A stretch of 64,000 nucleotides of DNA, from the NCBI GenBank assembly GCA_018241665.1, contig JAFEDK010000013.1:27905-91904 (forward strand). Direction: 5' to 3'. Below are positions 36,870-50,028 of this stretch, piece after piece. The notes under the pieces were generated by a model, which worked only from the letters and a program-made list of their open reading frames with translations, ran no database searches and had not been told where the DNA came from. Each line of letters begins with the position of its first letter. The stretch's first letter is position 1. The translations under genes and the position numbers were made by a program. Source of the DNA: Pseudomonadota bacterium (GTDB taxonomy: Bacteria; Pseudomonadota; Gammaproteobacteria; Burkholderiales; Rhodocyclaceae).

Positions 36870-37277
36870 TCAGCGCGGCATCGACTCGGCGAGGGAGAAG
36901 AAGCCGTGGGCCTTGTCCAGCTCGCCGTCGCGGACGACGACCCGGTGGATCAGCCAGCGCCCATCGCGCAGCCGCCAGGCACGCAGCGACTCGGCGTAGG
37001 CCAGGGTGCGGAAGGCGGCGGGGATCTCCGGCCCGCGGCTCTCCTCCAGTACGTAGCTGTGGGCGCAGTAGCAGGCGTTGTCGTCCTCGTCGCGGCCGAG
37101 GATACGGGCGGCGGTGACCACGTAATCCATGTAGTGGTCGAAATAGAGCGGCGCGACGACCTGCTCCTGCCATTCGGCCGGCAGGCCCTCGTTCCAGCGG
37201 ATCGCGGTTTCCGATCGGCGGCTGTGGCCGGGGCGGATATCAAAATATTGATGGGTGTATAGCCTTGCGTGGGACAT
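36870..37277 (-). CDS. Hypothetical protein
   Basis: 135 residues, soluble, acidic, with a start at ATG 37277. No motif I recognise. Aromatic-rich segments (LYFDHYMDYVVTAARIL, NACYCAHSYVLEE, LRDGRWLIHRVVVRDGE) suggest a small compact domain. It is in-frame over its whole length with codon use like its neighbours. Separated by 164 bases from the downstream YbaN-type gene, so no operon is evident. I cannot assign a family. Confidence 0.55.
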   Translation of the reverse strand: MSHARLYTHQYFDIRPGHSRRSETAIRWNEGLPAEWQEQVVAPLYFDHYMDYVVTAARILGRDEDDNACYCAHSYVLEESRGPEIPAAFRTLAYAESLRAWRLRDGRWLIHRVVVRDGELDKAHGFFSLAESMPR

Positions 37278-37440: not shown

Positions 37441-37510
37441 CGTGGGGGCGAATTCATTCGCCCGCAGAGGTCCGACAGCCAATGCAGGGCGAATGAGTTC
37501 GCCCCCACAG
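37441..37510. repeat. REP-like palindromic element, copy 5
   Basis: Left arm CGTGGGGGCGAATTCATTC, right arm ends GAGTTCGCCCCCACAG, 70 bases. Lies 8 bases beyond the TupA-like gene stop at 37519 and may serve as its hairpin terminator. Confidence 0.9.
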
Positions 37511-37518
37511 CGTGTCTC

Positions 37519-38364
37519 TTACTTGCCGGCCATGGCGAGTGGAAAGATCCACGGGCCACCGGCGGCCTTGTCCGCGGCGACGAGATCGGCCTGGCCCTGC
37601 GGCCCGGTGAGGTAGTCGGCGAGGCGGCGGGCCAGGCGGCGGCGTGAGCCGTCGGCGGGATGGCGGGGGCCGGGCTCGACTACCACGAAGACCCGGCGCA
37701 TCGCCGGATCGCCTTTCACGAGTACCTTGAGGCCGGCGTCGGGCATCTTGCCGAAGGCTACCGGCATGTGCCCGACCACCGCGTAGGCGCCTTGGCGGGC
37801 GGCCGACAGCAGGACTTCCTGCGGACGCTCGGCGTCGTCGTAGAGCTGCTGGCGCGGGCCGGGGCGCAGGCCGGCCTGGCGCCACAGACGTTGCACGATG
37901 GTGAAGCTGCCGGGATCGCGGAAGGCCAGCAGCGGCGCGTCGTGGGCGGCGATGCGGCGCAGCGCCTCGGTGGCGTCGGGCGCGTCGGCGATGCCGGCCG
38001 GATCGGCGGCGGGGCCGACCAGCACGTGCTCGTTGAGGGCCCAGGCGCGCAGCGGCGCAGCATCGCCCGCGGCGAGGAGCTGGAAGGTCTCGTCGCTGCC
38101 GTGGATCACCAGCAGGTCGGCCTCGCCGCGCTGGAAGATCGGCACGACGGTCTCCTTCGGGGCCGCGGCGACCAGTTCGATGGGAATGCCGGTGGCCTTG
38201 CTGGCCCGACGGGCCAGTTCGGGCCACACGCCGGCCATCACCGGGCCGCCGACCACCGCCACGTGCAGCGTCGGTGGTGCGGGGCTGGCGGCGGCGGGCA
38301 GGGCGGTGGCCAGCAGCAGGCCGGCAAGCAGTGGCGCCAGGCGCCGCAGTGTGCGGGATGTCAT
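37519..38364 (-). CDS. TupA-like periplasmic oxyanion-binding protein (partner of TonB receptor 1)
   Basis: 281 residues from ATG 38364, 8 bases after the receptor stop. Signal peptide LLAGLLLATALPAAA. The mature part aligns by eye with tungstate-binding TupA: NEHVLVGPAADPAGI and FRDPGSFTIVQRLW correspond to TupA's NDFVIVGP.DPAG and SRGDDSGTH regions, and LVKGDPAMRRVFVVVEPGPRHP to its C-terminal block. The TTTS-type oxyanion loop of TupA is replaced by AVVGGPVMAG, so specificity may differ. No ABC permease or ATPase accompanies it. Its place behind a ModE-box receptor supports a tungstate/molybdate-like ligand. Confidence 0.75.
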   Translation of the reverse strand: MTSRTLRRLAPLLAGLLLATALPAAASPAPPTLHVAVVGGPVMAGVWPELARRASKATGIPIELVAAAPKETVVPIFQRGEADLLVIHGSDETFQLLAAGDAAPLRAWALNEHVLVGPAADPAGIADAPDATEALRRIAAHDAPLLAFRDPGSFTIVQRLWRQAGLRPGPRQQLYDDAERPQEVLLSAARQGAYAVVGHMPVAFGKMPDAGLKVLVKGDPAMRRVFVVVEPGPRHPADGSRRRLARRLADYLTGPQGQADLVAADKAAGGPWIFPLAMAGK

Positions 38365-38372
38365 CGCGGACC

Positions 38373-40673
38373 TCAGAAGCTCAGCGCCAGCTTGCCGAGC
38401 AGGGTGCGCGGGTTGCCGGGATAGTAGTTGGTGGTGCCGGTCTGCAGGTCGCCGGCGTCGATCAGGCCGAGGTACTTGCGGTCGAACAGGTTGAGGGCGC
38501 TGAGGCTGGCGTCCACGCGGGTCGGGCCGATCTGCCAGCGGTAGCCCAGTTCCAGGTCCACCAGCGTGTAGCCGCCGAAGCGGTTGGTATGCACCGAGTC
38601 GTCGTAGCGGCCGCCCGTGTAGCGCAGCAGCGGCACGGCGCGGAAGTTGCCGGCCTTCCATTCGGCGCCGAGGGTGCCGATCAGGCGCGGCGTGTCTGGG
38701 AACTGCTGGCCCTTGACGGCGACGACGGTGCTGGCCGCGGTGCGCAGGTTCTCGTCGAACACCGCACGGCTCCACGACGCGCTGCCGAACAGGTTCAGGC
38801 TGGGGCGCGGCTCCCAGCCGGCAGCCAGCTGCACGCCGGCCAGATGGCCGTTGCCGATGTTCTGGCCATAGTTGAGGCCGACCGTCGGGTCATACACGTT
38901 CACCGACTTGTTGTTGATGCTGGCGTAGTAGACCGTCGGCTCCACGTAGCCCTGGGTGAAGCGCAGGCGCAGGCCGAGGTCGGCGGCGTCGTCGGTTTCC
39001 GGCTTCAGCTTGTTCCACAGGCTCTGGGCGAGGGCCTGCTGGCTGGCCTTGAGGTTGCGGATGTTGCTGTTCCAGATGTCGAAGGAGGCCGGGCCGATGT
39101 TGCGGCCGGCCGAGAAGCGCCCTTCGATGGTCGGCGTGAAGGCGTAGCGCAGGCCGACCCACGGCAGCACCTTGGCGACGGTCTGGCCGTCCACCGCCAC
39201 GGAGACGCCCGGTGAGGCGGCCAGCGCGGCGCGGTAGGACACGTCGCCGACGCCGGTCTTGGTGTATTCGGCGAGGCTCGGCATCTTCTCCTGGAACCAG
39301 CGCAGGCCGCCTTCGAGCTGCAGCGCCCGGTACTGCCAGGACGCCATCGCGAAGAGGGTCTGGAAGACGTGGCGGCCGGTGACTTCGCTGAGGGTGGTCC
39401 AGCCCTGGTTGCTGCTGCTGGCGGTGGCGGCGGCCCAGCTCAGGCCGCTGGCGGTGGCGGTGTAGAAGCGCTGGGCGTTGGGCGGGCCGGGCGGCTGCAT
39501 CGACGTGTAGCTGTAGCCGGCCTTCAGGCGGGTGGCATCGATGCGGGTTTCGACGTCGGCGCTGGCGCCGAAGCTGTTGTGCTCCATGATCCACTGACGG
39601 ACCTTGTTGGTGCCATTGGCATCGAAGGTGGAGCCGGACTCGTCGAAGCTGAACAGCTTGAGGCGGGCCCGGGTGTCGCTGCTGACACGGTATTCGGCTT
39701 CGCCGATGTAGGCCTGGTTGTCGAAGCTCTGCCGGTTGTAGGCGTAGTAGTTCTGGTAGTTGCCGGCCACCGGCTTGGCGTCGTAGCCGGTGTAGCGGTA
39801 GGCGGACAGGTCGAGGGCCTGGGCGGCGGTCAGCGGCTTGTAGTTGTTCTGGTCGATGTTGCTGCTCACCGCCAGCAGCTTGAGGGTCAGCGGGCCGAGG
39901 TCGGTGGCGACGGCCAGCAGGTAGTTCTGGCGCTCGGCCTGGCCGGGGCCGCGCCACAGGTTGGCATGGGCGGTGGAGGCGGAGGCCGCGATGCGGGTGT
40001 TGCCGGGCCCGAAGGCGCCGCTGTCCACCCGCGCAAAATAGCGCTCGAAGCCGTTGTCGCCGCTGGCCGCGGACAGGCTGCCGCCGGCCTTCCGTGCCGG
40101 CCACAGGATCTGGCTGTCGAGGGCCCCGGCGGTGTTGAAGAGGGCCGGCTGGTCGGGGGCGACCGGCCCCTGCGCCATGCTCACGCCGGCCAGGTTCTCC
40201 CTGTCGAACATCTGCAGATAGCCGGGGCCGGGATTGATGTTGGACAGGGTCAGGCCGTCCACGGTGCCGACGGCGCCGTGCCAGGCGGCGATGCCGCGCA
40301 CCCGCATGCCCTTGTTGCCGCCGATACGGCTGCTCAGGCCGTAGGGATCGAGGGCTTGCACCTTCACGGCCGGCAGGCCGGAAACCATCGTGTAGGGATT
40401 GGTGCCGCCTGCGGCGCCGAAGGTCTCCAGGCCGTCCGGCCCGACCTGGTAGGCCGTGGCGGACGTGTCCGGCCGCGAAGACAGGAATTCCGCGTGGCCG
40501 GGCTCGGCGGTGGCGGTAACCACGACGGTGTCGAGGGTCGTTGGTGTGCCCTCTGCGCGCAGATCGGAGGCGATGAGGGTGCCGGCCAGCGCGGCGCCGA
40601 CGGCAGCGGCGACGGGCGTAGGCAGGGCGGGGCGGGCTGTCGGGCGACGACGCTGGGTGGGGCGGACTCTCAT
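38373..40673 (-). CDS. TonB-dependent outer-membrane receptor 1
   Basis: 766 residues. Unusual N terminus: an Arg/Pro-rich stretch of 20 residues, then a signal segment (VAAAVGAALAGTLIA). TonB box LDTVVVTA at about residue 47. Plug domain follows, with MRVRGIAAWHGAVGTVDGL and the NINPGPGYLQMFDREN block; the remaining about 550 residues are the beta-barrel, ending in KLALSF with terminal Phe as for outer-membrane proteins. The ligand is not shown by the sequence, but the 24-bp ModE-type box ending 20 bases upstream of the ATG and the TupA-like gene behind it point to molybdate, tungstate or their chelates. Divergent from receptor 2. Confidence 0.85.
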   Translation of the reverse strand: MRVRPTQRRRPTARPALPTPVAAAVGAALAGTLIASDLRAEGTPTTLDTVVVTATAEPGHAEFLSSRPDTSATAYQVGPDGLETFGAAGGTNPYTMVSGLPAVKVQALDPYGLSSRIGGNKGMRVRGIAAWHGAVGTVDGLTLSNINPGPGYLQMFDRENLAGVSMAQGPVAPDQPALFNTAGALDSQILWPARKAGGSLSAASGDNGFERYFARVDSGAFGPGNTRIAASASTAHANLWRGPGQAERQNYLLAVATDLGPLTLKLLAVSSNIDQNNYKPLTAAQALDLSAYRYTGYDAKPVAGNYQNYYAYNRQSFDNQAYIGEAEYRVSSDTRARLKLFSFDESGSTFDANGTNKVRQWIMEHNSFGASADVETRIDATRLKAGYSYTSMQPPGPPNAQRFYTATASGLSWAAATASSSNQGWTTLSEVTGRHVFQTLFAMASWQYRALQLEGGLRWFQEKMPSLAEYTKTGVGDVSYRAALAASPGVSVAVDGQTVAKVLPWVGLRYAFTPTIEGRFSAGRNIGPASFDIWNSNIRNLKASQQALAQSLWNKLKPETDDAADLGLRLRFTQGYVEPTVYYASINNKSVNVYDPTVGLNYGQNIGNGHLAGVQLAAGWEPRPSLNLFGSASWSRAVFDENLRTAASTVVAVKGQQFPDTPRLIGTLGAEWKAGNFRAVPLLRYTGGRYDDSVHTNRFGGYTLVDLELGYRWQIGPTRVDASLSALNLFDRKYLGLIDAGDLQTGTTNYYPGNPRTLLGKLALSF

Positions 40674-40692
40674 GGTGGATACGGACCTGATT

Positions 40693-40716
40693 CGATATGT
40701 TGTGATTGATATAGCG
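40693..40716. promoter_or_regulatory. ModE-type box A before TonB receptor 1
   Basis: CGATATGT, 8 bases, ATATAGCG on the plus strand (CGCTATAT, 8 bases, ACATATCG for receptor 1). The E. coli operator is CGTTATAT-N8-ACATAACG, the same 24-base layout. It lies 19 bases before the ATG. Confidence 0.75.
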
Positions 40717-40876
40717 TTATTAGCAGCTGGCGTGCCTGCTTGTTGCGGCGCATCGAATCGAAGCTCGCACTGCCTGCCCGGGAGCGTGGGGAGAAGGCGT
40801 TCTGTTCATTCATCCGGGCTGTCTGGATATTCTGAAAATCGCTGCAATGGCCTTTATTTTGTCGCATTCAAGACAT

Positions 40877-40900
40877 CGCTGTGTAGTAAGTTATACATCG
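40877..40900. promoter_or_regulatory. ModE-type box B, weak, mid-intergenic
   Basis: CGCTGTGT, 8 bases, ATACATCG. Half sites match each other (CGCTGTGT versus CGATGTAT when reversed) with the same 24-base layout but poorer agreement than the outer boxes. Confidence 0.4.
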
Positions 40901-40994
40901 AAATAGGTGCTGTGTCGGAGTTTGTGTGCGCCGCACAAGGTTTTCCCGCAGGCACGCTCATTGCTCGGCATGGGATAGGAAGAGCTTCATATTT

Positions 40995-41018
40995 CGGTAT
41001 ATACAAACTTATATAGAC
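40995..41018. promoter_or_regulatory. ModE-type box C before TonB receptor 2
   Basis: CGGTATAT, 8 bases, ATATAGAC; 22 bases before the ATG of receptor 2. Confidence 0.7.
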
Positions 41019-41040
41019 GGTGTTCGTACAGGGGGTCTCG

Positions 41041-43095
41041 ATGAAAAGAAGGCAGATGCAGGCGTGGGTGCTGGGCGGCGTGTCGGCAGCGTTGGCGGGG
41101 TCGGCGGTGGCGGCGGACGGGGTATTTCAGCTCGGTACCGTGGATGTGGTGGCCAGCCCGATCGACGCGGCCGCGCCGGGGGAGGCCGTGATCAAGGGCG
41201 AGGCCCTGGAGCAGTTCAACCGTGACACCCTCGGCAAGGCGGTGGCGTTGACGCCGGGGATCAGCCTGTCCCGCAACAGCCGCAACGAGGACATCGTCTA
41301 TCTGCGCGGCTTCGACGTGCGCCAGGTGCCGCTGTTCATCGACGGCATCCCGGCCTACGTGCCCTATGACGGCTATGTGGACTTCGGCCGCTTCACGACC
41401 TTCGACCTGGCGGAGATCCGCGTCGCCAAGGGCGCGGCGTCGCTGCTCTACGGGCCCAACACGCTGGGAGGGGCGATCAACCTGGTCAGCCGCAAGCCGG
41501 TGAAGGCACTCGAAGGCGACTTGCGGGCGGGCTTTGGCGCCGGCGGCCTGCAGAAGTACGCCGCCAACGTGGGCAGTAATCAGGGCATGTGGTACATGCA
41601 GCTCGGCGCGTCCTACACCGACAGCAACTACTTCCCGCTGTCGAGCAACTACTCGCCGAAGTCCATTCCGACCAGCGCCAGCAACGCCACCCGCAACGTG
41701 CTGGAGGACGGCGGCCATCGGGAGAACTCCTACCAGACCGACTCCCGCCTGTCAGTGAAGCTGGGCCTGACCCCCAACGCCACCGATGAATACGCCATCG
41801 GCTACGTTCAGCAGAACGGCCGCAAGGGCAACCCGCCTTACGCCGGCAATGCGCCGGGGCAGTATCTGAACATCGGCGGCGGTGCCAACAGTCGCTTCTG
41901 GCAGTGGCCGTACTGGAACCTGGAGAGCACCTATTTCATCGCCAACGTGGCGGTCGGGCAGGACCACGTCGTCAAGGCGCGGGTGTACCAGGACAACTAC
42001 GACAACAAGATCCTCGCCTACAGCAACGGCAGCTATTCCTCGCTGATCGCCAACACCACCAACTTCCCGAGCTGGTACAAGGATTCGACCACCGGCGTGT
42101 CGGTCGAGCTGGACAGCTTCGCGTTCAGCGGCCACGAGCTGGCCATCGCCTACCACTACAAGGAAGACAAGCACCAGGACAACGGCCTGGCCCTCAGCAA
42201 GAACTACCGGGACGTGACCACCTCCATCGCGGTGGAGGACATGATCCGCGTCTCCGACCTGTGGCGCCTGCGCCTCGGCGCCAGCCACGACCAGCGCGAC
42301 GCCAAGGCGGTGTACTACTGGCCGACCGGCTCCACGTCCGGCACCAACTGGCTGGCCGAGCTGACCCGCAAGCTCGGTGGCGGGGCCGAGGCCTTCGCCA
42401 GCGTCGCCCACAAGACCCGCTTCCCGACCATCAAGGATCGTTACTCGGCGTCCCTCGGCAGCGGTCTGCCGAACCCCGACCTCAAGCCCGAGCGCGCCCT
42501 CAACGTCGAGACCGGCCTGCGCGGCAGCCCGTGGGGTGGCGCCCGCGGCCAGGCCAGCCTGTTCTACAGCCGCATCGAAAACCTGATGCAGCGCGTGAAC
42601 ATCATCCCGGTGTCCCTGTGCAACCAGCCGGGCGTCGGCGCGGCGACCTCCTGTGCGCAGCTGCAGAACATCGCCGAGGCGCGCCATGCCGGCGTCGAGC
42701 TGTCTTTGGAGCAGACCCTCGGCCACGGCTGGACGGTGGGCGGCAACTACACCTACCTGGATCGGGAAAACCGGACCTCGACGACGCCGCTCACCGACAC
42801 CCCGCGCAACCGCCTGTTCGCCTACGCCAGCTGGAAGCCCGCCGACCGCTGGGAATACCAGGCCTCGGTGGATGCGGAGAACGGCCGCGTGGTGGCCTAC
42901 GGCAGCGGCAACGCGGCGACCTACGTGAAGATGGGCGGCTTTGCGCTGGCCAACGTGAAGGCGGTGTACAAGCCGCTGCCAGCGTGGGCGCTGGAGGTCG
43001 GCGCGACCAACCTGTTCGACGCCAGCTACGCGCTGGCCGACGGCTACCCGATGCCCGGTCGCATGTGGTTCGCCAACGGCGCCTACAAGTTCTGA
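41041..43095 (+). CDS. TonB-dependent outer-membrane receptor 2
   Basis: 684 residues from ATG 41041 (AGGGGG upstream); the frame extends seven codons further but those fall outside the box. Signal peptide with GGVSAALAGSAVAA, TonB box-like LGTVDVVAS, plug domain with VYLRGFDVRQVPLFIDGIP and KGAASLLYGPNTLGGAINL, then a beta-barrel ending in GAYKF. The pair SLCNQPG...SCAQL could form an extracellular disulfide. Receptor family members transport siderophores, cobalamin or metal chelates. Leads an apparent operon with the Tat-exported binding protein (10-base gap) and the di-heme protein. The ModE-type box argues for a Mo-linked ligand. Confidence 0.88.
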   Translation: MKRRQMQAWVLGGVSAALAGSAVAADGVFQLGTVDVVASPIDAAAPGEAVIKGEALEQFNRDTLGKAVALTPGISLSRNSRNEDIVYLRGFDVRQVPLFIDGIPAYVPYDGYVDFGRFTTFDLAEIRVAKGAASLLYGPNTLGGAINLVSRKPVKALEGDLRAGFGAGGLQKYAANVGSNQGMWYMQLGASYTDSNYFPLSSNYSPKSIPTSASNATRNVLEDGGHRENSYQTDSRLSVKLGLTPNATDEYAIGYVQQNGRKGNPPYAGNAPGQYLNIGGGANSRFWQWPYWNLESTYFIANVAVGQDHVVKARVYQDNYDNKILAYSNGSYSSLIANTTNFPSWYKDSTTGVSVELDSFAFSGHELAIAYHYKEDKHQDNGLALSKNYRDVTTSIAVEDMIRVSDLWRLRLGASHDQRDAKAVYYWPTGSTSGTNWLAELTRKLGGGAEAFASVAHKTRFPTIKDRYSASLGSGLPNPDLKPERALNVETGLRGSPWGGARGQASLFYSRIENLMQRVNIIPVSLCNQPGVGAATSCAQLQNIAEARHAGVELSLEQTLGHGWTVGGNYTYLDRENRTSTTPLTDTPRNRLFAYASWKPADRWEYQASVDAENGRVVAYGSGNAATYVKMGGFALANVKAVYKPLPAWALEVGATNLFDASYALADGYPMPGRMWFANGAYKF

Positions 43096-43105
43096 GGAGG
43101 TCGTC

Positions 43106-44407
43106 ATGGACAGCCTGCACAAGCCTTCCCGCCGCGCCTTCGTGCGTGCCGCCGGCGCCCTCGCGGCGGCGGGGGCATCCGGCCGCCTGTGGGCGGCGCC
43201 GACGAAGGACGTGGTGGTGCTCACCGCCTACCCGGACGCGGTGGTGTCGCGTTTCGAGGCCGCCTTCGAGAAGGCCTGGCCCCAGTACCGTCTGCGCATC
43301 GTCTGGCGCATGCCCCACGACGCCTTGCCTTACCTCCGCCAGGCGGGGCAGGGCGGGATTGACGTGTACTGGAGCGCGTCGCCGAAGACCTACGCCCAGC
43401 TCAAGGACGAGCATGCTTTCCGCAAGCTGCCGGTGAGCCTGGAGGGCCTGCCGGGGCGGGTCGGCGGTAGTGTCATTAACGATCCGGACGGCTTCTACGC
43501 GGCGTCCGAGGTGGCTGGCTACGGCTTCGCGGTGAACCCGGCCTACCTGCACCGCCACCAGCTGCCGTCGGTGGCCGACTGGAGCGACCTGGCCGATCCG
43601 GTCTACGCCGGCCACCTGACGGTGCCGGACCCGGTGGAGGTGGGCTTCGCGCCGGTGCTGGTGGACATCCCGCTGCAGGCCTACGGCTGGGACATCGGCT
43701 GGGCCCTGTGGAGCGCCATCGCCGCCAACGCGGCCTTCACCGGGCGCGGCGGCACCTTCGTCAGCGACGAGATCGGCGGCGGGCGCAAGGGCATCGGGCT
43801 GTCCATCGACTTCTTCGTCGCGTCGGCGGTGGCCAACGGTGCGCCGGTCCAGTTCATCTACCCGCGCCAGGGCGGCGTCAATCCGGCCCACATCGCGGTG
43901 ACCGCCGGCAGCCCGAATCCGGACGGCGCGAAGGCTTTCGTGGACTTCGTGCTGTCCGACGCCGGGCAGAAGATCCTCGCCCACCCGGACATCCGCAAGC
44001 TGCCGGTGCGGCCGTCGGCCTACGTGGGCCTGCCGGCTGGCTACCATGACCCCTTCGCTGAGGCGGCGCGGGGCGGCTATCTCTATGACAACGCCCGTGG
44101 GCGTGGTCGCGCGGCACCGATTGCGGCGGCCTTCGGGCAGGCCTTTGTGCGACCGCATGTGCGCCTCGTCGAACTGTGGCGGCGCCTGCATGCGGCCGAC
44201 GGGGCCACCTGGAATACGGTCTGGCCGCTGCTGACGACCCCGCCGCTGAAGGAGACGGAGGCCGACGATCCGGCGATCCAGCGCGCCTTCTTCGCCCGCC
44301 GCGACGACCCGGCCGCCGAGGCGCTGGCCGCCGGCCTGGAAAAGACCTGGGCGAGCCGCGTCGATGCGCGCTATGCGAAGGCCGCCAGCCTGCTGGGGGT
44401 GGCCTGA
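43106..44407 (+). CDS. Tat-exported ABC-type solute-binding protein (AfuA/FbpA fold)
   Basis: 433 residues. The N terminus PSRRAFVRAAGALAAAG is a twin-arginine signal (S-R-R-x-F), so the protein folds with cofactor or metal before export. The body shows the family 6/1 binding-protein fold: VVVLTAYPDAVVSRFEAAFEK, TYGFAVN-like GYGFAVNPAYL, NPAHIAVTAGSPNPDGAKAFVDF. Longer than the usual about 340 residues, with a C-terminal extension from about 320. No permease or ATPase follows. It ends in a TGATG overlap with the di-heme gene, showing translational coupling. Ligand unknown; by context an anion or metal complex delivered by receptor 2. Confidence 0.82.
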   Translation: MDSLHKPSRRAFVRAAGALAAAGASGRLWAAPTKDVVVLTAYPDAVVSRFEAAFEKAWPQYRLRIVWRMPHDALPYLRQAGQGGIDVYWSASPKTYAQLKDEHAFRKLPVSLEGLPGRVGGSVINDPDGFYAASEVAGYGFAVNPAYLHRHQLPSVADWSDLADPVYAGHLTVPDPVEVGFAPVLVDIPLQAYGWDIGWALWSAIAANAAFTGRGGTFVSDEIGGGRKGIGLSIDFFVASAVANGAPVQFIYPRQGGVNPAHIAVTAGSPNPDGAKAFVDFVLSDAGQKILAHPDIRKLPVRPSAYVGLPAGYHDPFAEAARGGYLYDNARGRGRAAPIAAAFGQAFVRPHVRLVELWRRLHAADGATWNTVWPLLTTPPLKETEADDPAIQRAFFARRDDPAAEALAAGLEKTWASRVDARYAKAASLLGVA

Positions 44408-45747
44408 TGCGACGGCTGGGTCTTCTGTGGCTGGTGTGCGGCGTCTTCGCCGCGGCCGGCGCCCGGGCGGCGGACTGGCAGGTGCTGGACGCCGGCCGCG
44501 AGGCTTTCGCGCGGCCGCTGGAAGGTCTGACCGACGCGGAGCGGGAGCGCTTCTTCCACGGTCGTTCCCTGTTCAATCAGAGCTGGGTGGTGGCGCCGGC
44601 TAAAGATGAGCAGGTGGACGGCCTGGGGCCGCTGTACAACCGCTTGGCCTGCATCTCCTGTCACGCCCGCAATGGCCGCGGCCTGCCGCCGGAACATCCG
44701 GACGAGCGCATGCAGTCGATGCTGGTTCGGCTGTCGGTGGCCGGGCGGGGGCCGCATGGCGGACCACGGCCCCACCCGGCCTATGGCGACCAGTTCAACG
44801 AGGAAGGCATCCCCGGCGTGCCCGGCGAGGGTCGCATCCGCCTGGGCTGGGTCGAGTCGAAGCACCGGCTGGCGGATGGCGAAGTGGTGTCGCTGCGCCG
44901 TCCGCGGCTGGCCTTCACCGAGCTGGGCTACGGGGCGATCGGCAAGGTGCTGAGCTCGCCGCGGGTCGGTCAGCAGGTGGTGGGCATGGGCCTGCTCGAT
45001 GCCGTGTCGGCGCAGACCCTGGCGACGCTGGCCGCGGAGCGCAAGCCGGATGGCGTGAAAGGGCGGGTGAACCGGGTGTGGAACCCGGAGAGCGCGGCGC
45101 TGGAGGCCGGCCGCTTCGGCTACAAGGCCAACATGCCGACGCTGCGCGCGCAGCTTGCCGGGGCTTTTCTGGGCGACCTGGGCATCACGTCCGACCTGCA
45201 TCCGGCGCAGAACTGCACTGCCGCGCAGTCCGCCTGCCGGCAGGCGCCGAACGGCGGCACACCGGAGCTGAGCGCCCGCCAGCTGGATGACGTGGAGTTC
45301 TATCTGGCCCATCTGGCCGTGCCGGCCCGCCGTGATGCGGACAGCGAGGCGGTGCAGCGCGGCGAGGCGTTGTTCGCCCGCGCCGGTTGCGCGCAATGCC
45401 ACCGGCCGAGCCTCTCGACCGGGGCGTCGCCACGTTTCCCGCGGCTCGCCGGGCAGACCATCGCGCCTTATACGGATCTGCTGATCCACGACATGGGCCC
45501 CGGCCTGGCTGACGGCCGGCCGGATTTCACGGCGTCAGGGCGGGAGTGGCGCACGCCGCCGCTGTGGGGGATCGGGCTGACGCAGACGATCAGCGAGCAG
45601 CAACGCTATCTCCACGACGGCCGCGCCCGCAGCCTGACCGAGGCGATCCTGTGGCACGGCGGCGAGGCAAAGGTCGCGCGCCGACGTTTCGCCGCCCTGC
45701 CGGCGTCACAGCGCCGCGCCTTGCTGGCCTTTCTCGAAAGCCTGTGA
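44407..45747 (+). CDS. Di-heme cytochrome c oxidoreductase (DUF1111 / COG3488)
   Basis: 446 residues. Signal peptide residues 1-21. Two c-heme motifs: CISCH (82-86) and CAQCH (328-332). The family, called thiol oxidoreductase or DUF1111, resembles MauG/CcpA di-heme peroxidases but with different heme ligands; it is periplasmic. Overlaps the stop of the binding-protein gene by one base. By context it might change the redox state of the imported ligand or chelate, or of the binding protein, but no reaction is shown by the sequence. It ends with a tandem repeat and REP element. Confidence 0.87.
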   Translation: MRRLGLLWLVCGVFAAAGARAADWQVLDAGREAFARPLEGLTDAERERFFHGRSLFNQSWVVAPAKDEQVDGLGPLYNRLACISCHARNGRGLPPEHPDERMQSMLVRLSVAGRGPHGGPRPHPAYGDQFNEEGIPGVPGEGRIRLGWVESKHRLADGEVVSLRRPRLAFTELGYGAIGKVLSSPRVGQQVVGMGLLDAVSAQTLATLAAERKPDGVKGRVNRVWNPESAALEAGRFGYKANMPTLRAQLAGAFLGDLGITSDLHPAQNCTAAQSACRQAPNGGTPELSARQLDDVEFYLAHLAVPARRDADSEAVQRGEALFARAGCAQCHRPSLSTGASPRFPRLAGQTIAPYTDLLIHDMGPGLADGRPDFTASGREWRTPPLWGIGLTQTISEQQRYLHDGRARSLTEAILWHGGEAKVARRRFAALPASQRRALLAFLESL

Positions 45748-45782
45748 GGGGGCTGTTGTGGGGGACTGCTGTTGGAGGGAGT

Positions 45783-45828
45783 GCTGTGGGGGAGAGCACT
45801 GTGGGGGAGAGCACTGTGGGGGAGAGCA
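45783..45828. repeat. Tandem 15-base repeat at the REP edge
   Basis: Three near-perfect copies of CTGTGGGGGAGAGCA lead straight into the REP left arm, which begins with the same CTGTGGGGG. It looks like local duplication of the element edge. Confidence 0.85.
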
Positions 45829-45899
45829 CTGTGGGGGCGAATTCATTCGCCCTCGGACCTCAGTCAAGCGACTGCGGGCGAATGCATTCGCCCCCACGG
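45829..45899. repeat. REP-like palindromic element, copy 6
   Basis: CTGTGGGGGCGAATTCATTC on the left, GCGAATGCATTCGCCCCCAC on the right, 71 bases. Placed behind the di-heme gene stop. Confidence 0.9.
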
Positions 45900-45956
45900 G
45901 GAAGCAAGATCATTGATCGCCAGATAAATCAGAGAAATGCACAGTGAATGTGCATT

Positions 45957-45980
45957 CGCTATATTCAGGTGCATATAGTG
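45957..45980. promoter_or_regulatory. ModE-type box D (orphan)
   Basis: CGCTATAT, 8 bases, ATATAGTG: the best symmetrical match of the five to CGnTATAT-N8-ATATAGCG. Neither flanking gene starts here, since both end at this gap. Confidence 0.65.
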
Positions 45981-46049
45981 ATCCGCAGGGGGCGTGTCCG
46001 GATGTCCCGCGACTCTGCGCGGACGGGGCGTGGCGTCGCCGCCGGTACT

Positions 46050-46478
46050 TCAGCCGGTGACGCCGAGGATTACCGACGGTGCCTTGAAAACGGCGATTGC
46101 CGGGGTGCCGACCTTCAGGCCGAGGGCGACCGAGGCTTCGTGGGTGATGGTGGCATGGACGGTCTGGCCGTTGCCGAGGGTCAGCGCCACGTCGCTGCTG
46201 ACGGGGCCTTCGGTGAGCGCCGCGATGGTGCCCGGGAGGCGGTTGCGGGCCGACAGCCTTGCGCCGTCAGAGTCGGTCAGGAGCAGTACCGAAGAGGCTT
46301 TTACGAAGGCCTGGACGGGCTTTCCGGCTGTCAGTCCGAGCTCTCTGATGCTGTCGTTGGTGACGGTCGAGACGATCGTCAGGCCGCCGGGCAGGGCCAC
46401 GTCCACCTCGGAATTGATGGCGCCGGGCTTGATGGTCTGGATGGTGCCGTCGAAGGCGTTGCGGGCGCTGATCTTCAT
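46050..46478 (-). CDS. Di-Mop molbindin (molybdate-binding protein)
   Basis: 142 residues from ATG 46478 with GGAG upstream; the frame upstream is not coding. Two Mop domains in tandem (about 1-68 and 72-142), each beginning SARN and ending KASSVLL / KAPSVIL, the known molybdate/tungstate oxyanion-binding fold. Cytosolic; buffers or stores molybdate (ModG/Mop type). Divergent from modE with a 155-base shared gap holding ModE box E. Its domains resemble those at the end of the ModE and ModC proteins here. Confidence 0.93.
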   Translation of the reverse strand: MKISARNAFDGTIQTIKPGAINSEVDVALPGGLTIVSTVTNDSIRELGLTAGKPVQAFVKASSVLLLTDSDGARLSARNRLPGTIAALTEGPVSSDVALTLGNGQTVHATITHEASVALGLKVGTPAIAVFKAPSVILGVTG

Positions 46479-46603
46479 GGGGCGTTCTCCGGAAGCGGTG
46501 GCGGCATGGGCTGGGGCATCCAGCTTACGCAAGGAGGTCGCTGTCTTTCAACCGTGCGGCTCGGCGGGTGGTGGCCCGCTATTTGCTGGAGTACAGTACG
46601 CTC

Positions 46604-46627
46604 CGTTGTATATCGACATATATAGGA
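46604..46627. promoter_or_regulatory. ModE-type box E before modE
   Basis: CGTTGTAT, 8 bases, ATATAGGA; half site 7 of 8 identical to the E. coli CGTTATAT. The right end overlaps the AGGA ribosome site of modE (ATG 46634), so ModE bound here would block its own operon and perhaps also affect mop. Confidence 0.75.
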
Positions 46628-46633
46628 ACAAAA

Positions 46634-48245
<1,612 letters not shown>

Positions 48246-48259
48246 ACGATGGCTGAGTG

Positions 48260-48946
48260 ATGGAATTGACACCGGAAGACTGGTCGGCCGTTCGCCTGAC
48301 CCTCGAGCTGTCCACCGTCGTCACGGTGCTGTTGCTGATCATCGGGACGCCCATTGCGTGGTGGCTGGCCCGCACCCGGTCGCGCCTGCGCGGCGTGATC
48401 GGGGCGGTGGTGTCGCTGCCCATCGTGTTGCCGCCAACGGTGCTGGGCTTCTACCTGCTGGTGCTGATGGGGCCGCAGGGGGCGGTGGGGCGCTTCACCG
48501 AGGCGCTTGGTATCGGGCGGCTGCCCTTCACCTTCACCGGCCTGGTGGTGGCCTCGATCATCTACTCGCTGCCCTTCGTGGTGCAGCCCATTCAAAACGC
48601 CTTCATGGCGATGGGCGAGCGTCCGCTGGAGGTCGCCGCGACCCTGCGCGCCTCGCCGCTCGCCACCTTTTTCACGGTAGCCTTGCCGCTGGCGCGGCCG
48701 GGTTTCATCACCGCGGCCATCCTCGGTTTCGCGCACACGGTGGGCGAGTTCGGCGTGGTGCTGATGATAGGCGGCAACATTCCGGACAAGACGCGGGTCA
48801 TCTCGATGCAGATCTACAACCACGTGGAAGCGATGGAATACGGCCAGGCCCATGGCCTCGCGGCCTGCCTGCTGGCCTTCTCCTTCATCGTGCTGCTGGG
48901 GCTCTACGCCGTCGGCGGGCGCAATGCGCTGGGGGGCTCGCGATGA
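48260..48946 (+). CDS. modB: Molybdate ABC transporter permease ModB
   Basis: 228 residues from ATG 48260 (a GTG one codon earlier is possible). Five membrane segments; permease EAA loop [30 protein letters not shown]. Its stop overlaps the modC ATG (ATGA). Confidence 0.95.
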
Positions 48947-50028
48947 ACGACGCCACCGGCATCCAGCTGCAATGCCGCCTGCCGCTGGCGGATTTCACCC
49001 TGGAAGTGGACCTGCACCTGCCCGGTCGTGGCGTGACCGCGCTGTTCGGGCCATCCGGCTCGGGCAAGACCTCGCTGCTGCGCTGCGTGGCCGGGCTGGC
49101 GCGGCCGGCCGGGCGGGTGGAGATCAACGGTGAATGCTGGCAGGACGACGCGCGGCGGGTCTTCCTGCCGACCCACCTGCGGCCCCTCGGCTACGTGTTC
49201 CAGGAAGCCAGCCTGTTTGCCCACCTGTCGGTGCGCGCCAACCTGGAGTTCGGCCTGAAGCGCATCCCCGCGGCAGAGCGCAAGGTCGGCTGGGAGGCGG
49301 CGGTCGAACTGCTGGGCATCAGCCATCTGCTGGACCGCGGCACGGCGGCCCTGTCCGGTGGTGAGCGCCAGCGGGTGGCGATCGCCCGCGCGCTGCTGAC
49401 CAGTCCGCAGCTGCTGCTGATGGACGAGCCGCTGGCGGCGCTGGACAGCCGGCGCAAGCAGGAAATCCTGCCCTATCTCGAACGCCTGCACGACGAGCTG
49501 GCGACGCCGATCCTGTACGTCAGCCATTCGCCGGACGAGGTGGCGCGGCTGGCCGACCACATGGTGCTGCTGGAGCAGGGCCGGGTGGTGGCCAGTGGGC
49601 CGACCGCCGAGCTGCTGGCCCGCCTGGACCTGCCGCTGGCCCTCGATGAGGACGCGGCGGTGCTGGTGGACACCCAGGTCGTCGGCCACGACGAGGACTA
49701 TCAATTGACCCGGCTGGGTTTTCCCGGCGGCGTTATCAAGGTGACCCGCAAGGCCCTCGACGTGGGCAAGCGGGCGCGCCTGAAGATCCAGGCCCGCGAC
49801 GTGAGCATCGCGCTCACCGGCGAGAACCGCTCGAGCATCGTCAACCGCCTGCCGGCACGCATCGTCGGTTTTGGCGACGCAGCCCATCCGGCCCAGTGCC
49901 TGGTGCGCCTGGACGCGGGCGGAACGCCGCTGCTGGCGCGGATCACCCGCCTGTCGAAGGACCAGCTCGAACTGCGCGAGGGCCTGCCGGTCGTCGCGCA
50001 GATCAAGTCGGTGGCGCTGCTGGCCTGA
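48943..50028 (+). CDS. modC: Molybdate ABC transporter ATPase ModC
   Basis: 361 residues from ATG 48943, overlapping the modB stop by four bases. Walker A GPSGSGKT (36-43), signature LSGGERQ (137-143), Walker [13 protein letters not shown]. The C-terminal about 70 residues are a Mop/TOBE domain ([15 protein letters not shown]...[12 protein letters not shown]), which lets molybdate inhibit transport in some ModC proteins. Ends at a hairpin with the convergent aldehyde dehydrogenase gene. Confidence 0.95.

Follow-up and report, generated by a model that had tools for sequence, protein, structure and literature searches.

A gene cluster of Zoogloea, located in a stretch of 64,000 nucleotides of contig JAFEDK010000013.1 (here termed the window), probably encodes a TonB-dependent uptake route for molybdenum (or tungsten) that is repressed by ModE. 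The cluster comprises two divergent genes for TonB-dependent receptors (TBDT1 and TBDT2), each followed by a gene for a periplasmic binding protein (SBP1 and SBP2, respectively), a gene for a di-heme oxidoreductase-family protein (DHOR), and the adjoining mop, modE, and modABC genes (Table 1). This reading is based on the gene content, the sequence of a ModE-type box, its conservation, and the neighbourhood of the receptor genes. Uptake of molybdenum or tungsten had already been proposed in the first-pass annotation of the window and is supported by the conservation of boxes near orthologous receptors described below. The near relatives of the organism carry the name Zoogloea, and its own genome has a size of 5.43 Mb.

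ModE-type boxes in the cluster

Scanning of the window for the box with up to two mismatches yielded six matches, compared to 0.06 expected from shuffled sequences. They represent four places because two of the matches repeat a place already found, read on the other strand, and each of the four has at most one mismatch on the better strand. The first-pass annotation had counted five 24-base sites, with a site ahead of either receptor and another ahead of modE. This placement was right, and the fourth strong place lies between the 3' ends of the DHOR and mop genes. A fifth full box had to be rejected, the best candidate being a site with two mismatches (37244-37261) inside the codons of orf135, where conservation of the protein may be the sole reason for the match. 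In the genome as a whole, the same threshold gave 14 matches versus nine for a reversed-pattern control. Six matches had no or one mismatch, five of which (four places) are located in the 6-kb stretch of the cluster and one elsewhere. The latter (G000:C54:161501-161522) lies near an open reading frame (ORF) that reads like an aspartate kinase gene and could be a chance match.

The box at 45957 has a perfect core and is situated between converging 3' ends, where no gene start was seen. It is kept in all six other Zoogloea-group loci that contain the DHOR and mop genes in one stretch, in one of them with one mismatch, and the GTGCATATA half is conserved in the relatives. None was listed for G017, which is devoid of DHOR.

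Conservation of the box in the TBDT2 family

A scan with the TBDT2 alignment, using one genome per species, gave 303 relatives, the best 80 of which were used for the wider counts. According to their titles, these 80 loci are mostly from beta- and gammaproteobacteria, with some metagenome-assembled genomes named only Proteobacteria and one of a Verrucomicrobiaceae. Boxes were counted within about 420 bp upstream of TBDT2 in the 79 loci with sufficient upstream DNA (L087, with 45 bp, was dropped). A box with at most two mismatches was present in 65 of the 79 loci, with at most one mismatch in 44, and without mismatch in 22, whereas dinucleotide shuffles of the same upstream windows gave 7.14, 0.62, and 0.02, respectively. 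Random windows of the same loci contained a box with up to two mismatches in 3.5 % of the cases (4324 windows), and among 20 other TonB receptors of the relatives' genomes, inspected with a larger window, a single one had such a box. Grouping of the loci by title gave 50 groups, of which 41 have a box with no more than two mismatches and 25 a box with no more than one.

Eight of the 14 loci without a near box have one further upstream, in most cases in front of what seems to be the operon's first gene (L091, L093, L095, L097, L100, L103, L122, and L106, the last being weak and 1.4 kb away), as judged by a looser inspection without matched control. L143 has a site with three mismatches and L145 has only two-mismatch sites further off; in L092, L094, L125, and L156 no box was found either near TBDT2 or further upstream.

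The C and G flanking the pattern used for selection are conserved to 84 % and 87 %, respectively (41 sites, one per group, both strands), which gives the full family motif TCGnTATATA-N6-TATATAnCGA. Owing to these conserved CG flanks, it is identical to the ModE consensus of E. coli given in PMC545781, in agreement with the E. coli operator layout noted in the first-pass annotation. In Janthinobacterium sp. LM6, which has a TBDT2 locus without nearby mod genes, the full palindrome occurs with no or one mismatch at only three places of the genome. Two of them are arranged in tandem before TBDT2, and the third precedes a modA-like gene heading an ABC-modE run, at a distance of about 112 bp from the first residue matched in that gene.

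Molybdenum-related genes in the neighbourhood of TBDT2

Neighbouring genes were counted within 10 kb in the 80 loci, with matches below the limit being dropped. At least one of modE/mop, modA, modB, modC, and a tupB-like gene was present in 42 of 80 loci and, by the same rule, in none of the 20 control loci. The individual counts were 40 for modE/mop, 19 each for modA, modB, and modC, 16 for tupB-like permeases (defined by less than 50 % identity to ModB, so that other permeases are possible), 30 for SBP2, 28 for DHOR, ten for TBDT1, and three for ExbB. Genes labelled MolA-like (17), FecCD (12), NifQ (9), and DUF2478 (7) were also found; the NifQ and DUF2478 labels, like the PF00174 label below, derive from the Pfam result of one representative each. 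The MolA-like label likewise rests on one representative, that of L122, which matches HI_1472 (3psa) with an E-value of 2.5e-18 and 4pag with 4e-75. In the 13-20-kb stretches around the 20 control receptors, modE, mop, modA, and modB were not matched; modC gave four weak matches (35-36 % identity, about 90-105 bits), which resemble generic ATPases.

The most extended arrangement is that of L122, where a same-strand run behind the boxes consists of orf135, TBDT2, SBP2, DHOR, TBDT1, MolA-like, globin, TonB, FecCD, FecE, and luciferase-like monooxygenase genes. TonB-ExbBD genes adjoin TBDT2 in some relatives. The orf135 family occurs in 13 of the 80 loci and several times forms the first gene after the boxes, boxes before orf135 being present in L075-L078, L093, L095, L100, L103, and L122.

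A protein of the sulfite-oxidase fold (PF00174) is encoded in 38 of the 80 loci, in 37 of them directly after TBDT2; in L155 its gene is located elsewhere on the other strand. The PF00174 domain was detected in all 26 scanned members of the 39 in this family, and 18 of the 26 have a cysteine in one column, a candidate equivalent of the molybdenum-ligand cysteine of the enzyme. No such PruR-like protein was found in the window.

Cluster variants in the Zoogloea group

In a same-genus search covering 60 genomes, the own one included, strong matches to TBDT1 (>1600 bits) were obtained in three further genomes, which are 92-94 % relatives of the Zoogloea group. Strong matches to TBDT2 (>1200 bits) occurred in seven genomes, and a 40 % relative was found in G059, which belongs to another family. 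The whole cluster is kept in G016, G020, and G021, being split over two contigs in G020, whereas G004, G011, and G012 contain TBDT2-SBP2-DHOR-mop-modEABC without TBDT1 and SBP1; in G010 the contig ends within SBP2. In the Zoogloea-group loci, boxes with up to two mismatches are present at the receptors, orf135, and modE wherever the contig covers the place.

In G021 (L069 4241-12252) an insert was found that contains orf135, TonB, ExbB, ExbD, a FecCD permease with its ATPase, a luciferase-like monooxygenase, a Peripla_BP_2 protein, and a further receptor of the TBDT1 type. Behind SBP1, the same genome encodes a globin and another Peripla_BP_2 protein. A two-mismatch box is located upstream of this orf135 and a one-mismatch box inside it. 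The insert is partly seen in G020 (L073), where a second receptor and ATPase have a spacing like that in G021. In G017 (L080 3248-4629), a genome that is about 80 % complete, SBP1, TBDT2, and SBP2 exist only as fragments between orf135 and the mop-modEABC genes, and this lineage seems to have lost the receptors. G059 (L079 3806-10411) contains TBDT2-SBP2-DHOR, the receptor ORF being preceded at a distance of 57 bp by a perfect box; the translation of the next gene on the same strand reads like a SulP-type anion transporter.

Proposed uptake route and alternative explanations

From these features we infer ModE binding, the direction of control, the substrate, the order of the steps, and the role of DHOR as follows. 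When cellular molybdate is scarce, ModE would leave the boxes and both receptors would be made. TBDT2, together with TBDT1 where present, would then pull a molybdenum or tungsten species through the outer membrane, an organic complex being more likely here than the oxyanion in free form. In the periplasm this species would be bound by SBP2 and SBP1 or, in other species, by the MolA-like protein, and DHOR might, at a guess, help as a redox partner to free the metal. Finally, an ABC importer would carry the metal into the cell, presumably ModABC in the own organism and a TupABC-like or FecCD-type system in some relatives, a few of which may rely on their own TonB-ExbBD. A chelate is favoured because a luciferase-like monooxygenase and a globin are encoded in some relatives; some metal-chelate-cleaving monooxygenases belong to the luciferase-like family.

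A number of observations weigh against this proposal. Fifteen of the 80 loci are from Janthinobacterium, and in the LM6 genome the reversed-pattern control gave 15 matches per strand at up to three mismatches versus eight for the real pattern, so that only sites with no or one mismatch carry weight there. No mod, tup-like, or modE/mop gene is present in 38 of the 80 loci in the stretch examined, which was short in some cases. In support of the proposal, however, all 26 genomes searched among these 38 have a match to the ModE DNA-binding domain and 22 exceed the cut-off, with weak matches in this search being obtained also in half of the control genomes. SBP1 has VGGP at the position where TupA has TTTS (alignment to 5my5). 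Furthermore, the nearest solved receptors are those for siderophores, colicins, cobalamin, and pyrroloquinoline quinone (PQQ), and therefore the barrels name no substrate.

An independent class-level search of 370 genomes for TBDT2 relatives at an E-value of 1e-60 adds to these points. As up to three candidates were scored per genome, the result of at least seven positive genomes, the own one included, is a lower bound. Although the predicted operator upstream of the receptors matches the ModE consensus, a box was present in only two of the six independent loci (L225 and L230), mod/modE genes in two (L225 and L229), and either in three. In L225 a perfect box is accompanied by modE, DUF2478, MolA-like, and FecCD genes, and L230 has two boxes, MolA-like, and FecCD. 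The remaining four are without a box: L226 with a TupA-like SBP1 relative (53 %), DUF2478, MolA-like, and FecCD; L227 with SBP2, DHOR, and ExbD only; L228 with weak SBP1-like (24 %) and modC-like (41 %) matches and SBP2; and L229 with modABC, mop, MolA-like, FecCD, and TBDT1. Outside the best 80 loci, the link between receptor and molybdenum is real but not uniform.

Import of free molybdate or tungstate instead of a chelate, in the way of MnoT for manganese and OprC for copper, is conceivable yet doubtful. TonB receptors for simple metal ions have been described (PMC8602904), and the mod- and tup-like neighbours belong to oxyanion uptake, as does the TupA-like SBP1, which is homologous to TupA (E 3e-15 to 3lr1). 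However, SBP1 lacks the TTTS stretch of TupA, and the monooxygenase, globin, and pterin-fold protein encoded in some relatives are more in keeping with an organic ligand. The TTTS stretch of TupA is oxyanion-binding, and its loss disfavours SBP1 as a plain TupA; moreover, free molybdate is small enough to pass through porins. As a special case of an organic ligand, TBDT2 might import molybdenum bound to a pterin, for example molybdenum cofactor released by other cells or a product of its breakdown, with the periplasmic sulfite-oxidase-fold protein encoded after TBDT2 as carrier; such a cofactor-scavenging route we consider unlikely.

It is similarly improbable that the receptors fetch another metal, such as vanadium or iron, needed in the absence of molybdenum. 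In Azotobacter vinelandii, ModE represses vnfA1 and partly anfA, and VnfA1-dependent TonB receptor operons are present (PMC9542535); these genes, which are switched on in the absence of molybdenum and vanadium, may serve such a purpose. In the own genome, by contrast, no match to AnfG/VnfG and no AnfK over the cut-off was found, which disfavours metal supply to an alternative nitrogenase; the neighbours are molybdenum/tungsten genes, and SBP2 is devoid of the ferric tyrosine pair. SBP2 has the fold of the ferric-binding protein FbpA, but a Phe-Phe pair, present in 19 of 19 sequences, aligns to the Tyr-Tyr pair of FbpA (7li0). The Tyr-Tyr pair of FbpA provides iron ligands, and SBP2 is therefore disfavoured as an ordinary ferric-binding protein. 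That TBDT1 and TBDT2 are ordinary siderophore receptors adjoining mod genes by chance is the least credible explanation: siderophore receptors are indeed among the best solved matches, but box and molybdenum neighbours recur in the 80 loci far above the controls.

Features of the window

Table 1 Genes and ModE-type boxes of the cluster (positions refer to the window)
Feature	Position	Strand	Characteristics
orf135	36870-37277	-	135-aa protein; no Pfam family
SBP1, periplasmic binding protein, TupA-like	37519-38364	-	PF13531 E 3e-7; PDB 3lr1 E 3e-15, 5my5 E 5e-14
TBDT1, TonB-dependent receptor, 766 aa	38373-40673	-	PF00593 (TonB_dep_Rec_b-barrel) E 1e-30
ModE-type box upstream of TBDT1 (distance about 20 bp)	40693-40716		1 mismatch; kept in G016, G020, G021 with 1-2 mismatches
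ModE-type box upstream of TBDT2 (distance about 22 bp)	40995-41018		0 mismatches; kept in relatives
TBDT2, TonB-dependent receptor, 684 aa	41041-43095	+	PF00593 E 2e-32; PF07715 (Plug) E 7e-18
SBP2, periplasmic binding protein of the Tat type with AfuA/FbpA-like fold	43106-44407	+	SBP_bac_6 match
DHOR, di-heme oxidoreductase-family protein	44407-45747	+	PF06537 E 3e-88; two CxxCH motifs
ModE-type box between the 3' ends of DHOR and mop	45957-45980		0 mismatches
mop, two Mop/TOBE domains	46050-46478	-	TIGR00638 E 8e-41
ModE-type box between mop and modE	46604-46627		1 mismatch
modE, molybdate-responsive regulator, helix-turn-helix and two TOBE domains	46634-47461	+	TIGR00637 105.7 bits, cut-off 98.5; start read from sequence
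modA	47487-48245	+	TIGR01256 228.8 bits, cut-off 62.5
modB	48257-48946	+	TIGR02141 241.4 bits, cut-off 182.6
modC	48943-50028	+	TIGR02142 460.3 bits, cut-off 285.05

The gene order from left to right is that of Table 1, the divergent stretch between TBDT1 and TBDT2 comprising 367 bp with two boxes. The gene assignments of the first-pass annotation, i.e. two divergent TonB receptors, a TupA-like and a Tat-exported binding protein beside them, a di-heme oxidoreductase, and the adjoining mop/modE/modABC genes, were all borne out, with the modE DNA-binding domain, modA, modB, and modC exceeding the NCBIfam cut-offs. TBDT2 has both barrel and plug domains and TBDT1 the barrel only, no plug domain being matched in Pfam at an E-value of 0.001. 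No NCBIfam receptor family was over the cut-off for TBDT1 or, among the matches listed (25 of 29), for TBDT2, and no NCBIfam family matched SBP1. The translation of SBP2 contains the stretch SRRAFVR, which we take to be the twin-arginine (Tat) motif.

The view that the new binding proteins have no ABC pore of their own holds for the window but not for some relatives, which possess one. That the own genome encodes a MolA/FecCD importer at another place was rejected as well: the sole FecCD match, 37 % identical and outside the window, has one in-frame stop, and a weak match to a TonB receptor lies at a distance of about 1.3 kb. ORF-cluster groups such as 17, 29, and 32 were taken for shadow ORFs and dropped, one tested member of each being without a Pfam match. 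Similar repeats with GCGAATTCATTCGCCC-like palindromes are present at 37446-37520 (after SBP1) and 45750-45905 (after DHOR), the latter stretch also containing short direct repeats.

Comparison with known systems

Classical ModE targets are genes for inner-membrane uptake and molybdenum enzymes, and molybdenum and tungsten oxyanions are generally taken to cross the outer membrane via porins. If the reading proposed here is true, many bacteria actively scavenge molybdenum, as the family with ModE boxes extends over beta- and gammaproteobacteria, and possibly possess a receptor for the molybdenum-binding chelators of soil and water, which would be of relevance for molybdenum-limited nitrogen fixation and nitrate reduction. 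The question has become testable, since the box, the regulator, the receptor, and the binding proteins have been defined and host strains can be given, such as Janthinobacterium sp. LM6 and Zoogloea sp. LCSB751 (L086), the latter with the entire cluster. The H. influenzae MolBCA system (HI_1472, 3psa) resembles the TBDT2 loci of some relatives, where a MolA-like protein and a FecCD/FecE importer accompany the receptor, and differs from the window, which has no counterpart.

In the open-licence literature no characterised TonB receptor for molybdenum or tungsten was found, and the sections of PMC5343134, PMC10781756, and PMC3093359 drawn on here contain nothing on such a receptor. A close system by description is the molybdenum cluster Achr_39320-39230 of Azotobacter chroococcum NCIMB 8003, in which a TonB receptor annotated as 'potentially for molybdate' and an ABC transporter adjoin modG, modE, and modA1B1C1 (PMC4465626); this label is a guess made in annotation, with neither boxes nor a family nor a test behind it, and the two clusters are likened by description, not by sequence. 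In Pseudomonas aeruginosa, the ModA-IcmP pair of a type VI secretion system also provides an outer-membrane step for molybdate, but IcmP is described as a metalloproteinase outer-membrane protein partnering a secreted ModA, and not as a TonB receptor, in the parts of PMC8602904 and PMC11734730 used here.

The sulfite-oxidase-fold family differs from the pterin-binding protein PruR, which pairs with DcpA-type regulators and is devoid of the molybdenum-ligand cysteine (PMC13259868), in that it follows TBDT2 and has a cysteine in one column in most scanned members (see above). TonB-dependent uptake of other metals, via siderophores or by MnoT for manganese and OprC for copper (PMC8602904), shares with the present system the receptor barrel and, in some relatives, TonB-ExbBD; the regulator differs and so, presumably, does the metal. 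The ModE-modABC regulon has the regulator family, the operator layout (PMC545781), and the ABC importer in common with the Zoogloea cluster, whereas here the box is carried by outer-membrane receptors and their periplasmic partners.

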